In this document: positions 1,831 to 29,969 of the stretch, one piece after another | How the letters are laid out: every line of letters starts with the position of its first letter | How positions within the stretch are numbered: the stretch's first letter is position 1 | Assembly (NCBI RefSeq): GCF_023973145.1 | Contig: NZ_CP099546.1 | Location: 2,728,001-2,792,000, forward strand | Length of the DNA stretch: 64,000 bases | Direction of reading: 5' to 3' | Origin: Natronosalvus vescus | GTDB taxonomy: Archaea; Halobacteriota; Halobacteria; Halobacteriales; Natrialbaceae | Program-made: the position numbers and the translations under genes | Notes under the pieces: model-generated | The model's database searches: none | What the model was told of the DNA's origin: nothing | What the model saw: the letters and a program-made list of their open reading frames with translations, nothing else

Positions 1831-3195
1831 TCACTGCGGATGGGGTGGTTTCTTCCCCGCGATATCGAGTACGTGCTCCCCCAGCCGTTTTGCCATCAGC
1901 GGCGGTACCGCGTTCCCGATCTGATTGGCGACGTCGTCGAATCGACCCTCGAACACGAAGGTGTCCGGGAAGCTCTGAATTCGCGCTCCCTCGCGGAGCG
2001 AGAGTCCCCGGTTTTCGGTCGGATGCAGCTTGTCCCGTGGGTTGAAATCCGTCGTCATGATGGTGTTCGACTGGCCGTCCGGCTCGAGGCGCATGTACCG
2101 CGGCCGGATCCCCGATTTGGTGTTCAGGTCGTAGCCGAGGGTGCCATCTTCCTCGTCGGTACGGATCCACCCGTCGTCGTGGAGCCGCTCGAGTGCCTCG
2201 TAAACCTCGTCATCGTCGTGGTCGATCCCCTCGGCGATGAGATGGTCGGGCACCGCGCCGACGGACTTACCGTTCATCCTGTACGCCTTCCGGGTTCGGT
2301 GACGGGCGATGAAGTGGAGGGCGTCCCGTTCGACGGCGCTAAAGCGGTGTGCCAGCAGATCCCAAACCTGGCGATAGCGGTCGCCAAAGCGGCTCGAGCG
2401 GTACATCTCGCCTGGCTCGAGGGCGTCGACGATGTGGCGGGTGTCCTCGTCGGTCGCCGGCTCCTTCGCCGTGTGATTCTCGGTCGTGGTTGCACCGTCG
2501 CGTACGAGCGGGAGGTACTCGTTGTCGGGGAACTCGGACAGTGGCGGCAGGTCGACCGTCCCGTCTTCGGTCGGGTCGGGAAGATCCTCGAGGGCCGCCG
2601 AGACGGTCGTCCAGCCCTGCATCCGCTCGCCCTCGAGGGTCAGTTGCCCGCCCCCGCCTTCACTGTGGGTGCCGGTCGGGAGCGACGGCTCGACGGTGAG
2701 ATCCTCGCGGACGCCGCAGTAGATCACTCGCTCTCGGGTCTGTGGGACACCGAAGTCGGCGGCGTTCAGCGTCTCCCACTCGACCCGGTAGCCGGCGGCC
2801 GCGAACTCGGCTTCGATCGCCTCGAGGAACGCCTCGCCGATGGTGGTCATGCCGGCGACGTTCTCCATCATCACGTAGTCGGGTTCGAAGTGGGCGACCC
2901 ACTGGATGAAGGAGAAGACGAGCTGGTTGCGCTCGTCGTCCAGCCGCCTGGAGCCGCGAGCGTCGCTGAAGCCCTGGCAAGGTGGACTGCCGAAGACGAC
3001 GTCCACATCGAGATCCTTGATTTCTGAGGGAACGCCCTCGCTGATGTCGTGTAGAATGCCGGTTCCCTCGTGGTTGGCCTCGAAGCTCTCGAGGGCGCGC
3101 TCGTCGGTGTCGACCCCGTAGCGAACGTCGATGCCGGCGTCCTCGAAACCGGCGCTGAACCCACCCGCACCACAGAACAGGTCGATCGCGTTCAT
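1831..3195 (-). CDS. DNA (cytosine-5) methyltransferase of a type II R-M system
   Basis: The 454-aa enzyme transfers a methyl group from S-adenosylmethionine to C5 of cytosine. Motif I (DLFCGAGGFSAGFEDAG, residues 5-21) binds the cofactor. Motif IV (GSPPCQGFSDAR, catalytic C73), motif VI (ENV, 111-113), motif VIII (QTRERV) and the C-terminal GNAVPP motif X are all present. The long variable region (about 230-390) would recognise the target. A TATA box at 3221-3228 lies 26-33 bases before the ATG. The endonuclease-like gene 360 bp upstream on the same strand suggests a cognate pair. If the endonuclease is truly TdeIII-like, the expected site is GGNCC, but specificity cannot be read from this protein. 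The gene appears intact. Confidence 0.92.
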   Translation of the reverse strand: MNAIDLFCGAGGFSAGFEDAGIDVRYGVDTDERALESFEANHEGTGILHDISEGVPSEIKDLDVDVVFGSPPCQGFSDARGSRRLDDERNQLVFSFIQWVAHFEPDYVMMENVAGMTTIGEAFLEAIEAEFAAAGYRVEWETLNAADFGVPQTRERVIYCGVREDLTVEPSLPTGTHSEGGGGQLTLEGERMQGWTTVSAALEDLPDPTEDGTVDLPPLSEFPDNEYLPLVRDGATTTENHTAKEPATDEDTRHIVDALEPGEMYRSSRFGDRYRQVWDLLAHRFSAVERDALHFIARHRTRKAYRMNGKSVGAVPDHLIAEGIDHDDDEVYEALERLHDDGWIRTDEEDGTLGYDLNTKSGIRPRYMRLEPDGQSNTIMTTDFNPRDKLHPTENRGLSLREGARIQSFPDTFVFEGRFDDVANQIGNAVPPLMAKRLGEHVLDIAGKKPPHPQ

Positions 3196-3220
3196 TTCCT
3201 ATCCTCGATTGACTGCGGGG

Positions 3221-3229
3221 GTATATATG
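3221..3229 (-). promoter_or_regulatory. TATA box of the C5 methyltransferase gene
   Basis: On the minus strand the sequence GCATATATAC lies about 26-34 bases before the ATG at 3195, the spacing of archaeal promoters with little or no leader. Confidence 0.6.
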
Positions 3230-3312
3230 CATCGGGGAACGGCCGCGAGGTGTGTCTCGAGTTCGTATACACGCTGCTACCGTAGTTGGTTGAAATAATT
3301 TCTATTCAGCAC

Positions 3313-3320
3313 TTTAATAA
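3313..3320 (+). promoter_or_regulatory. TATA box of the small membrane gene
   Basis: TTTAATAA begins 32 bases before the ATG at 3345. The gene between methylase and endonuclease therefore seems to have its own promoter, with a probably leaderless transcript. Confidence 0.6.
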
Positions 3321-3344
3321 CTAACCGCCGATAACGCCTGATAC

Positions 3345-3545
3345 ATGGCATCCACGACGAATAGCGTGATGAAAACACTCGGGATCATAGCAGTGTTCGT
3401 ACTGCTGGGGGTACTTTTCACCGGTATAACGCTGCTGGACATCGGTGCGATGTATCCGGTCTTCCACACGACAGTCGTGTTGATTGTGCTGTATTTATTT
3501 TACAGGCTCGTGGTCGCCGTGGAGACGATCGCCAATAACGAGTGA
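3345..3545 (+). CDS. Small two-helix membrane protein inside the R-M locus
   Basis: The 66-aa protein has two hydrophobic helices (about residues 9-31 and 36-58) and a short polar tail, so it should be an integral membrane protein. No family is recognised. It lies between the methyltransferase and endonuclease genes on the opposite strand and ends 11 bases before the 3' end of the endonuclease gene. Its own TATA box lies about 30 bases upstream. Base composition is less GC-rich than its neighbours, which fits acquisition together with the R-M genes. A link to restriction is only positional. Confidence 0.65.
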   Translation: MASTTNSVMKTLGIIAVFVLLGVLFTGITLLDIGAMYPVFHTTVVLIVLYLFYRLVVAVETIANNE

Positions 3546-3555
3546 GTTGACAACG

Positions 3556-4404
3556 CTACAGCGTTTCGTCCCCGGCGAGCGCTTTCAGCTTCTCGATGTT
3601 GCCAGCTGACTCCTCGAGCAAGAAGTTAAAGAGCCCCTCCATCGTCCCCGGGCCGCCGATCCCGTCCCAAAACTCCTCGGCGATGAGCATCCCGTCGCTC
3701 GATTTGACGTCGAAAAACGCCTGCGGAGGCCACCAGCTATAGTCCTCGAGGCTGCCGTAGGGATTGAACGGGAAGACGTACCGACAGATCGGCGTCGGTT
3801 CCTTGCGGTGTTTGTAGGCGGCAACCGTCTTCAGCATCTGACGTTTCGACTCCATCGTCTGATCACGGTTGGGTTTCGGCGTCTTGATTTCGGCGGCGAG
3901 GGGCTGCCCGTTTCGAAAGTCCTCGATCCAGAGATCCCACGTAATCCGTCCGATCGGCTTGAAGCTCGACTGGCTCGAGTCGACCGCCAGCACCTCGGCC
4001 GTTTCGCGCTCCCAGTCGGGTTCACGGTCGCCGTCGGCTAGCTCACCGATGATCGTCTCGATTCGATTCTCCTCGGCGTGGCTCAACTCGAGGTCGGTAC
4101 AGGCGTGCTGGGTTTCGGCCGGGCCGACGGCGTCGTTCGTGTTCGCCACCGCGCGCCCGAACTCCTCGTACATCTGCTGGCCGAGTTTCTGGGTGAAACT
4201 GCGTTCGAAATTAGCGAGTACCCAGAACAGTGGCGAGGGCATCATGATCGCCTTGAACGCCTCGTTGCGCTTGAACTCCGGCCAGTCGAAGTTGCCAGCC
4301 TTCTCGAGGGGGCGCTCGAAGAAGCCGTCGGTCACCGCCCGTAGTTCCGCCTTCGTCGCCGGATCCAACTCTGTGTCACCGATGTGCTCGAACCGTTGCT
4401 CCAT
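3556..4404 (-). CDS. TdeIII-like type II restriction endonuclease
   Basis: The 282-aa protein resembles the TdeIII restriction endonuclease family, whose prototype cuts GGNCC. The best support is the metal-binding core: D157 in TWDLWIED, then E172-I-K174 in AEIKTPKPN, which is a clear D-(x)n-E-x-K nuclease motif followed by the DQ-x-SKRQML helix. An upstream helical region has FERSFTQKLGQQMYEEFGRAVAN, split here as FERSFTQKLG and EEFGRAVAN. The start at 4404 omits nine Arg/Lys-rich residues that could be added upstream. It is on the same strand as the C5 methyltransferase, and together they would protect and cut the same site. Family membership is recalled from motifs, not searched. Confidence 0.78.
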   Translation of the reverse strand: MEQRFEHIGDTELDPATKAELRAVTDGFFERPLEKAGNFDWPEFKRNEAFKAIMMPSPLFWVLANFERSFTQKLGQQMYEEFGRAVANTNDAVGPAETQHACTDLELSHAEENRIETIIGELADGDREPDWERETAEVLAVDSSQSSFKPIGRITWDLWIEDFRNGQPLAAEIKTPKPNRDQTMESKRQMLKTVAAYKHRKEPTPICRYVFPFNPYGSLEDYSWWPPQAFFDVKSSDGMLIAEEFWDGIGGPGTMEGLFNFLLEESAGNIEKLKALAGDETL

Positions 4405-4538: not shown

Positions 4539-4811
4539 TTACTTCGTCAGCGAGACCAGCACGAGAATCAGCCCGCTCGAGACGATGACCGCCTGAATGA
4601 GGCCTGCAGAGAGGATCGACGTGCCAAAGACCAGGTAGATGAGTCCCTCACAAATCGCTCCCGCGCCGATGAAGACGAACCCGGCGGAGACGTACAGCAT
4701 CGGTTCGCGACCGTTGCGACGGTAGCCGTGGTAGGCGAGGTAGGCGACGGCGAGGCTTAACACGAGCGTAATCAGTTTCGCGAGTACGAACGGCGCCTCG
4801 ATCGAACTCAT
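4539..4811 (-). CDS. DUF7521-like three-helix membrane protein
   Basis: This 90-aa membrane protein has three hydrophobic helices (about 8-27, 39-61 and 66-88) and a short basic loop after the first. The start codon overlaps the stop of the upstream winged-helix gene (ATGA), so the two are translationally coupled. Such regulator/membrane pairs are common in haloarchaea and the protein fits the family I know as DUF7521. No enzymatic residues are visible. It may be a partner or target of the regulator, possibly a membrane sensor; this is inference from coupling alone. Confidence 0.75.
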   Translation of the reverse strand: MSSIEAPFVLAKLITLVLSLAVAYLAYHGYRRNGREPMLYVSAGFVFIGAGAICEGLIYLVFGTSILSAGLIQAVIVSSGLILVLVSLTK

Positions 4812-5182
4812 CGGTCGCCTCGTAATTCGTCCCACAGCGCCGTAAAGTTGTCAGCGAGTTCGTCACGCGTCTCGAGCGTGAGCGTCAACTCCCCGCCCGT
4901 GAGGCTGACGTGCAGTCCCTCGAGGACGGTCTCGAACTCGCTTCTGTGCGAGCCGTCGGGCCCGATCGTGGTGCGTTCCTCGAGGAGGTCGTGTTCCTGT
5001 AACATCGACACCCGTCGATAGATGGTCGCGAGCGAGGCGTCACACGCGTCGCTCAGCGCTTTTGCGGTCATCGGTTGTCGATCCGCCTCGAGCAGTATCT
5101 GGCGCGCGTAGTCGTCCGCGAGTACTTGGAAAATCTCCGACGACTCCGACGACCCACCGTGCGCGGTTCCCTTCGAATGCAC
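4808..5182 (-). CDS. Winged-helix (ArsR-like) transcriptional regulator
   Basis: The 124-aa regulator has a winged helix at about residues 15-85, including LSDACDASLATIYRRVSML, a helix-turn-helix recognition segment, followed by a C-terminal beta-rich part. I prefer the GTG at 5182 over the TTG at 5236 because TTATTTG on the minus strand lies about 25-31 bases before the GTG, which fits a leaderless promoter, and because a 17-bp palindrome (5221-5237) would otherwise lie inside the coding region. It is coupled to the membrane protein gene and divergent from the carbamoyltransferase gene. It is the best local candidate for binding the palindrome, a version of which recurs at 10069. Confidence 0.78.
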   Translation of the reverse strand: MHSKGTAHGGSSESSEIFQVLADDYARQILLEADRQPMTAKALSDACDASLATIYRRVSMLQEHDLLEERTTIGPDGSHRSEFETVLEGLHVSLTGGELTLTLETRDELADNFTALWDELRGDR

Positions 5183-5205
5183 GGTGGCCCGCTCACCGTT
5201 CTCAC

Positions 5206-5212
5206 ACAAATA
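5206..5212 (-). promoter_or_regulatory. TATA box of the winged-helix regulator gene
   Basis: Minus-strand TTATTTG lies 25-31 bases before the GTG at 5182 and immediately downstream, in transcription direction, of the palindrome at 5221-5237. It decides the choice of start codon. Confidence 0.5.
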
Positions 5213-5220
5213 AGCGGCGA

Positions 5221-5237
5221 TTTGCCTGGTCAGCAAA
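5221..5237. promoter_or_regulatory. Palindromic operator, copy 1
   Basis: TTTGCCTGGTCAGCAAA is an imperfect palindrome between the divergent regulator and carbamoyltransferase genes. With flanking bases, 5217-5238 matches 10065-10086 at 19 of 22 positions. Two further inverted repeats follow towards the carbamoyltransferase: CTGGT/ACCAG at 5244-5260 and TACCCT/AGGGTA at 5266-5279. Confidence 0.55.
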
Positions 5238-5298
5238 AGTCCACTGGTGTTTTGTACCAGTCCGTTACCCTAGAGGGTAGCGACGAATTCACGGAACC

Positions 5299-7020
5299 AT
5301 GACTGACTATCTGCTCGCATTTAAACCCGCGATCGGTCTCTACGGACAACACGACCCGAGTGCCGTCCTCTTCGAAGACGGCACGCCGGTGTTCGGTGTC
5401 GAGGAAGAGCGCTACACGCGGGAGAAACACGCCACCGAGACGTTCCCCGAAAACGCGATTCGAGCGTGCCTCGAGTATCGCGACCTCCACCTATCGGACG
5501 TCGACCGGATTCTGCTGCCGTACGATCCCTCCCTCCGTAGCGAGATTACCGGGCACTACCTGACCGACGCGATACGCGTCCCCGGCATCGTACGGAAAGC
5601 GTCGGCGCTCGAACACACCCTCGTCACGCAGGTGCGCAGCCGGTTCGTCCCGACCCGTCAGATCGAGTCCCGCCTCGAGGAGATCGGCACGCCGGTACCG
5701 CCGGTCGAAACGCTCGCACACCACCGCTGTCACGCTGCCAGTGCGTTCCACCCGTCTGGGTTCGACGAGGCCGTCGTCCTCACGATTGACGCCAAGGGGG
5801 AGTACGATTCGACGGTCGTCTGGTACGCCACACCCAACGGGCTCAGGCGAATACGGACGTACGATCACCCAAACAGTCTGGGCCTCCTTTTCGCCATCGT
5901 CACGGAGTTCCTCGGCTACAGGATGTTCAACGGGGAGGGGAAGGTGATGGGGCTCGCTCCCTACGGGGAGGACAACCCGCAGATCGAGCGCGTCCTTCGC
6001 GATCTAATCGAGACCGGCGTCGACTACGACGTCACCGAACTCACCAAACGATGGGGGACGGGCTACGGAATCGAACGGCTCGAGGATGCCTTCGGACGCT
6101 CGCGAAACGAGACGCGCGGGGAGTTCGACCAGTGGGAGAAAGACCTCGCCCACACCGTCCAGAAACTACTCGAGGAGACGGTCGTCGATATCGTCGAGGA
6201 CGCAGTAAGACAACTGGGCACTGCGAACGTCGCCCTGGCCGGCGGCGTCGCCCTCAACTGCAAGCTCAACAAGTACGTCCGGGAGTCCCCGGCGGTCGAC
6301 GACGTGTTCATCCAGCCGGTCGCCCACGACGCGGGGCTCGCACTGGGTGCCGGCTGGGCCGAGCAACGCTCCGACGCGGTCGACCGGCAGACGACCGTCT
6401 ACCTCGGCCCGTCCTACGACACCGAGGAGATTCGAGAGACCCTCGAGACGAACAAGATCGCCTACACGGAGCCGAACGACCTCGAGCGCTACGTCGCCGA
6501 GCGACTGGCCGACGGACAGCTCGTCGGCTGGTTCCAGGGACGGATGGAGATTGGGCCGCGTGCGCTGGGTAGTCGAAGCATCCTCGCCGATCCCAGAACG
6601 GCCGCCTCGCGCGACCGGGTCAACCGCTTCGTCAAGCACCGCGAGGAGTGGCGTCCGTTCGCCCCGTCGATGCTCGAGGAGGCAGCCCCGGAGTACCTCG
6701 TCGACGGCGGGCCCGCACCGTTCATGATCGACGCCTACGACACCAACCCGGACAGGGTGGACGACCTCGAGGCCGTGATCCACCCCGCTGACGATTCGAC
6801 GCGACCACAGACCGTTCGCGAGGAGCAACATCCCCGGTACTATCGACTCATCTCGGAGTTCGCGGACATCACCGGCGTCCCGGTCGTGCTCAACACCTCG
6901 TTCAACGACCACGCCGAACCGATCGTCCGGACGCCGACACACGCGATCAAAGACTTCTACGGGATGGGGCTGGACGTGCTCGTGCTCGAGGATCTCGTGG
7001 TCGAGAAGGGGTCATCGTAG
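5299..7020 (+). CDS. NodU/CmcH-family carbamoyltransferase
   Basis: The 573-aa protein belongs to the family that makes carbamoyl adenylate and transfers the carbamoyl group to a hydroxyl or amine of a small molecule or glycan. The N-terminal ASKHA-like domain carries HHRCHAASAF around residue 141, which contains the metal-binding histidines, and a GGVALNCKLN motif near 315. The C-terminal domain has RMEIGPRALGSRSI at 415-428 and NTSFND near 532. The length is typical. The 5' region contains three inverted repeats between 5221 and 5279, so expression is probably controlled. No sugar-nucleotide or antibiotic biosynthesis genes adjoin it, so the acceptor is unknown. Pairing with the divergent regulator is the only contextual clue. 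Confidence 0.88.
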   Translation: MTDYLLAFKPAIGLYGQHDPSAVLFEDGTPVFGVEEERYTREKHATETFPENAIRACLEYRDLHLSDVDRILLPYDPSLRSEITGHYLTDAIRVPGIVRKASALEHTLVTQVRSRFVPTRQIESRLEEIGTPVPPVETLAHHRCHAASAFHPSGFDEAVVLTIDAKGEYDSTVVWYATPNGLRRIRTYDHPNSLGLLFAIVTEFLGYRMFNGEGKVMGLAPYGEDNPQIERVLRDLIETGVDYDVTELTKRWGTGYGIERLEDAFGRSRNETRGEFDQWEKDLAHTVQKLLEETVVDIVEDAVRQLGTANVALAGGVALNCKLNKYVRESPAVDDVFIQPVAHDAGLALGAGWAEQRSDAVDRQTTVYLGPSYDTEEIRETLETNKIAYTEPNDLERYVAERLADGQLVGWFQGRMEIGPRALGSRSILADPRTAASRDRVNRFVKHREEWRPFAPSMLEEAAPEYLVDGGPAPFMIDAYDTNPDRVDDLEAVIHPADDSTRPQTVREEQHPRYYRLISEFADITGVPVVLNTSFNDHAEPIVRTPTHAIKDFYGMGLDVLVLEDLVVEKGSS

Positions 7021-29918: not shown

Positions 29919-29969
29919 CGGCGATTGGCTCATACACTATGGTGGGGGCTATACTGCCTCCAGTGTACA

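Follow-up and report, generated by a model that had tools for sequence, protein, structure and literature searches.

The restriction endonucleases TdeIII and MjaII recognise GGNCC, and a member of the Pfam family PF09520 was also found in Methanocaldococcus jannaschii by a control search. The literature search found nothing on TdeIII and no report of a small gene between the endonuclease and methyltransferase genes of a restriction-modification (R-M) system. For haloarchaea, GGW(m5C)C was determined by MspJI cleavage in the methylome of Salarchaeum sp. JOR-1 and the product was named M.SspJOR1III (PMC6992872). GGNCC was not found in the main text of a survey of archaeal R-M systems (PMC10609329) or in that of PMC6471742.

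The window analysed here, a stretch of 64,000 nucleotides, belongs to a genome of 3.84 Mb in a single contig, haloarchaeal judging by its relatives, and positions given without a stretch label refer to it. A C5 cytosine DNA methyltransferase of 454 aa (M; 1831-3195, minus strand) was identified by its match to PF00145 (E = 5.3e-65), and a TdeIII-family Type II restriction endonuclease of 282 aa (R; 3556-4404, minus strand), upstream of M, by its match to PF09520 RE_TdeIII (E = 2.2e-40). The PF09520 score of R was 139.3 bits against a curated cut-off of 27.2, which places R in the TdeIII family, and the match covered positions 28-236 of 242. The two genes are adjacent as in Type II R-M systems, and the same pair was present at six further loci. 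Between them, a gene for a 66-aa two-helix membrane protein, probably a passenger, was located at 3345-3545 on the plus strand. A sequence-only reading of this DNA had described a C5 methyltransferase and a TdeIII-like endonuclease around an opposite-strand 66-aa two-helix gene, and a Type II system with a TdeIII-like endonuclease; both descriptions were borne out. M was the sole C5 methylase match in a search of the whole genome. The PPC, ENV and QxRxR motifs of M were invariant across six aligned sequences (M included) and the WDLW...EIK stretch of R was retained in all four compared sequences (R included); by eye, these were read as putative catalytic motifs. On the M strand, ATATATAC at roughly 3217-3226 was likewise read by eye as a possible TATA box of M. 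No match for R was found among the solved structures searched. In addition, a 179-aa ORF was present at 12-551, at a distance of 1.3 kb from M. It matched nothing in Pfam, NCBIfam or PADLOC, and its stretch LDLLVDGEAADLKTQ resembles a PD-(D/E)XK nuclease core by eye.

The six other loci with both enzymes belonged to genomes G010, G220 and G217, Halonotius roseus (G231), Halonotius aquaticus (G065) and a Haloferacaceae MAG. The R homologues at these loci adjoined M and were 65-83% identical. None of the six loci contained a relative of the 66-aa gene. The gaps from the R stop codon to M were 46, 46, 85 and 90 bp at four of the loci, leaving no room for the gene, and 388 bp in G010. In G217, where R and M are divergent, the gap was 451 bp. 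Both larger gaps contained a regulator-like ORF antisense to M (G010, L034 7833-8221; G217, L030 7306-7593). These two ORFs were homologous, with 51% identity over 81 aa, and Pfam support was weak, with a Penicillinase_R match for the G217 ORF (E = 3.5e-5) and nothing significant for the G010 ORF. The regulator-like ORF could be the archaeal equivalent of C-protein control. G010 is probably Salarchaeum sp. JOR-1 and its C5 methylase probably M.SspJOR1III. The likely TATA element of M in G010 was flanked by two CGGGTACCCG palindromes (L034 8174-8183 and 8212-8221), and one CGGGTACCCG palindrome was retained in G220 (L033 7368-7453), which does not have the regulator-like ORF. No palindrome resembling those of G010 was found near M in the window. 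A seventh genome, G122, had an M 70% identical (L112 4735-7547) next to a phage-type integrase, and a search of that genome gave no PF09520 match. A tRNA end was suspected by eye beside this integrase, and ARAGORN found none. An inverted repeat, GTAGGC-N6-GCCTAC, was observed upstream of M in G122 (L112 6108-6125) and before R in G217 (L030 7292-7309), two genomes that otherwise differ, and could be an operator. Its one match in the window had three mismatches and was at 29943, far from the R-M genes.

Site avoidance was determined from observed motif counts compared with a Markov expectation in sampled stretches of each genome. The pooled GGNCC ratio was 0.51 in this genome compared to 0.78-0.85 in four congeners. 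This pooled depletion seemed to support GGNCC, the specificity of TdeIII and MjaII, as the target, and the sequence-only reading had suggested GGNCC methylation. However, the ratios by middle base were 0.07 for GGACC, 0.07 for GGTCC, 0.77 for GGCCC and 0.97 for GGGCC, so that only GGWCC was below the congeners and all of the excess depletion was in GGWCC (0.07), while the GGSCC ratio of 0.87 was inside the congeners' range of 0.77-0.91. GGW(m5C)C is also the motif measured in JOR-1 (PMC6992872). GGNCC as the target of the system is thus most improbable, and the methylation proposed by the earlier reading was replaced by GGWCC on the basis of site avoidance and the methylome of the probable G010 organism. 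The GGNCC specificity of TdeIII and MjaII was not reflected in the site counts, which concerns specificity and not membership in the sequence family.

Overall, 25 GGWCC sites were seen in 164 kb of this genome against 354.7 expected, a 14-fold depletion. Four congeners without the system (80 kb each) had 181/238.1, 199/266.3, 192/244.2 and 150/189.1 observed to expected sites (0.75-0.79). Of the 484 5-mers expected 40 times or more, GGACC/GGTCC was the lowest, and the next-lowest, TAGGA, had a ratio of 0.46 here and was similarly low in the congeners (0.47). In tiles of 20 kb, the congeners had 22-65 GGWCC sites and this genome had 1-3 outside the window; within the window, successive 16 kb segments had 1, 7, 2 and 6. 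In other genomes with M, the counts were 30/244.2 in G010, 34/260.6 in G220, 9/101.3 in G231, 6/111.5 in G065 and 12/157.4 in G122, a loss of 8- to 19-fold in five of the six other genomes with this methylase. The sixth, G217, had 48/121.9 (2.5-fold) and the most distant methylase, 51-53% identical. The MAG contig had 2/6.5 and was too short to judge. Haloarchaea without the system had 155/168.5 in G003 and G012 taken together and 323/379.0 in thirteen other stretches. The split between W and S as middle base was repeated in G010, G220, both Halonotius genomes and G122. CCWGG was also depleted in G122 (0.11) and G217 (0.14; 59 kb, L145-L147), which indicates that other systems act in those two genomes. 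Against a simple reading, the depletion was weaker in G217, and G122 was strongly depleted of GGWCC (0.08) though R was not found there; a methylase with GGWCC still depleted looks as if R had been lost. From these sequence comparisons, we infer that the target of M is GGWCC. For R, the site avoidance and the JOR-1 methylome bear on the target indirectly. Site avoidance is described as increasing with the residence time of an R-M system in a genome (PMC4687349), which suggests, given the depth of the depletion, that this system has long been resident. GGWCC is also described as absent from all haloviruses of the HF1 group but HRTV-7 (PMC7230728).

The reality of the 66-aa gene was supported by profile searches. 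A profile that left out the window protein scored it at E = 1.6e-16 in a set of 1370 ORFs. With a profile from 14 members that only profile searching had recovered, the value was E = 1.7e-11; the two profiles are not fully independent since both derive from a search seeded with the 66-aa protein. In the controls, none of the same 1370 ORFs gave an E-value as low as 1 when reversed, and among 2000 shuffles the best value was 0.011-0.03. Based on these values, the reading of 3345-3545 as a chance ORF was rejected. The predicted model of the protein was a two-helix hairpin (H5-26 and H33-65) with a mean pLDDT of 76.6 and a pTM of 0.45. The protein shared with its family the two-helix layout and a YR(L/F)VxAhExIA stretch at the C-terminus. 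The start regions of M and the 66-aa gene were divergent within 149 bp (3196-3344). On the plus strand, TTTAATAA at 3313-3320 may serve the small gene as a TATA element, and its spacing fits that of leaderless haloarchaeal genes. Within the AT-rich gap 3230-3345, 23% of positions carried six consecutive A/T bases in this frame, compared to 1.2% window-wide. Of the own TATA box claimed earlier, the plausible spacing of TTTAATAA therefore stood, and its distinctiveness was reduced by the 23% chance rate, leaving the element plausible but weak as a promoter. PADLOC gave no match for the 66-aa protein, the best being CorA-like (E = 0.19).

A single-protein search matched 19 of 391 genomes of the class, its own included. 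The 66-aa protein and 16 of the 18 others were aligned (A1); the two omitted were a near-duplicate and a close relative. In a profile search with A1, 143 of 292 haloarchaeal genomes contained members of the two-helix family, mostly at one copy per genome, and this genome carried a second copy at C1:1161979-1162191. A Pfam search with 17 members produced scattered weak matches only, to four families (best E = 0.0011). To our knowledge, this family with its YR(L/F)VxAhExIA stretch corresponds to no clear Pfam family and has no known function. Among the genomes with the homologous M, one member each was present in G065 and G231, in both on another contig than M, and in G122 (approximately 328 kb from M), and none was found genome-wide in G010, G220 and G217. 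Around approximately 39 other family places, 68 stretches with approximately 1.5 to 5 kb of flanking DNA were searched for relatives of M and R. Some of the places were represented twice, and no relative was found at E ≤ 1e-3. The neighbours of the family members were varied among the matches listed. The best match of the small family in solved structures was Na+/H+ antiporter subunit B, which was not significant (E = 0.33). The 66-aa protein was not found in plasmids, and in viral contigs 31 stretches fitted the family pattern with none confirmed. The literature on haloarchaeal small membrane proteins returned no title on the two-helix family.

Across the class, R occurred in 6 of 391 genomes, among them this one, and a search of the 124 other genomes of its taxonomic family did not find it. 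A patchy distribution of this kind is described for haloarchaeal R-M genes (PMC6471742). R was not found in plasmids or viral contigs; M was not found in phages and, at a limit of 1e-30, matched three bacterial plasmid records with less than 39% identity. On the R side of the locus, the flank at 4539-7020, which carries a DUF7521 gene, a regulator and a carbamoyltransferase, was conserved at 76-77% in three congeners (G174, G277 and G250). The window DNA left of 4539 had no match in the compared stretches of these congeners. The adjoining 2.1 kb was common to two of the three at 92% and was different in the third, and a phage-type integrase was present further along from the conserved flank in G277. 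Two more congeners (G253 and G045) matched only from approximately 5300 onward. The differing DNA beside the conserved flank indicates that the locus position varies within the genus, and the edge at approximately 4539 (L047-L049 in the congeners) looks like an insertion-prone place. The regulator at 4808-5236 was considered as a controller of the R-M system and rejected, since it is part of the flank in congeners without R-M. We regard the locus as an ordinary Type II system that was gained by horizontal transfer.

The reading with the strongest backing, which we regard as very probable, is that of a horizontally acquired Type II pair for GGWCC with the 66-aa gene as a passenger between R and M. 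An orthodox R-M pair would have arrived by horizontal transfer at a site that varies, next to a flank that is conserved. M would methylate GGWCC at the inner C and so protect its own sites, and R would cut unmethylated GGWCC in incoming DNA; we infer the enzyme activity, the cutting at GGWCC and the protection. The 66-aa gene would have ended up between the two genes by a chance insertion. Its product probably forms a small hairpin in the membrane with cytoplasmic termini, judging from helix layout and charges, and, if active at all, probably acts independently of restriction, for example (as a guess) as an accessory to another membrane complex. Since the family occurs independently of this M and R, the gene here is most simply a passenger. 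Against the passenger reading, the gene lies in the gap that holds the regulator-like ORF at two homologous loci. It also has no close relative, and a recent recruitment in this lineage would look the same.

This gap, shared with the ORFs of G010 and G217 together with the orientation relative to M, would be expected if the 66-aa gene had taken over a control slot, where divergent transcription or its product tunes M and R levels in place of the regulator-like ORF; the divergent start regions of M and the 66-aa gene within 149 bp also fit. However, four homologous loci have no gene at all in the gap, the membrane hairpin has no DNA-binding part and palindromes of the G010 type are absent near M in the window, so that a control function appears improbable. 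The position between R and M is also what would be expected of a back-up to the R-M system, in which the 66-aa protein would be a membrane toxin or abortive effector that is silent until M is lost or infection occurs. The possible promoter of its own and the hydrophobic two-helix hairpin suit this role, and small membrane toxins exist in type I toxin-antitoxin systems (PMC3874152). Here the small gene was linked to the pair at none of the six homologous loci, its family is widespread, mostly single-copy and without this M or R nearby, no antitoxin was identified and PADLOC gave no match, and we therefore consider a back-up toxin quite unlikely. Both the fail-safe toxin and the occupant of the control slot have no comparative support. 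There is likewise only a slim chance that, in this lineage alone, the family hairpin replaced the regulator and works with the R-M pair, for example as a membrane fail-safe divergent from M.

The sequence-only reading had offered an added R-M component and chance cargo among its alternatives. The former was contradicted by the absence of the gene at all six homologous loci and by a family that occurs without this M and R, and the same absence together with the wide independent family made chance cargo the best supported of these alternatives. That reading had also named in advance what would speak against it, namely the small gene being absent or independent of R-M genes elsewhere, and methylation at a different motif. 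Both came out against it, the second through GGWCC as indicated by site avoidance and the JOR-1 methylome, and the interpretation as a membrane component is thus not supported. The results argue against a membrane component of R-M and replace a guessed target with GGWCC as read from the genome. They also suggest that not all TdeIII-family endonucleases are GGNCC enzymes. Comparison of site depletion between genomes with and without the methylase allowed the target to be found without a methylome of this strain. The candidate archaeal R-M regulator of the homologous loci and the palindromes at the M promoter there may merit testing more than the membrane gene.

In comparison with known systems, the 66-aa protein is short and hydrophobic like the small membrane toxins Hok and TisB described in type I toxin-antitoxin systems (PMC3874152). 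It differs from them in that no antisense antitoxin was identified and in belonging to a wide family whose neighbourhoods were varied among the matches listed. C-protein R-M systems are resembled by the two homologous loci with a regulator-like ORF between R and M, while the window has no such ORF there. R resembles TdeIII-family endonucleases by its match to PF09520; the specificity is GGNCC for TdeIII and MjaII, whereas GGWCC is the probable target here. Finally, the locus is like that of M.SspJOR1III in that the only C5 methylase of G010 is 78-79% identical to M and its adjoining R is 80% identical, and unlike it in that G010 carries the regulator-like ORF between R and M and not the 66-aa gene.
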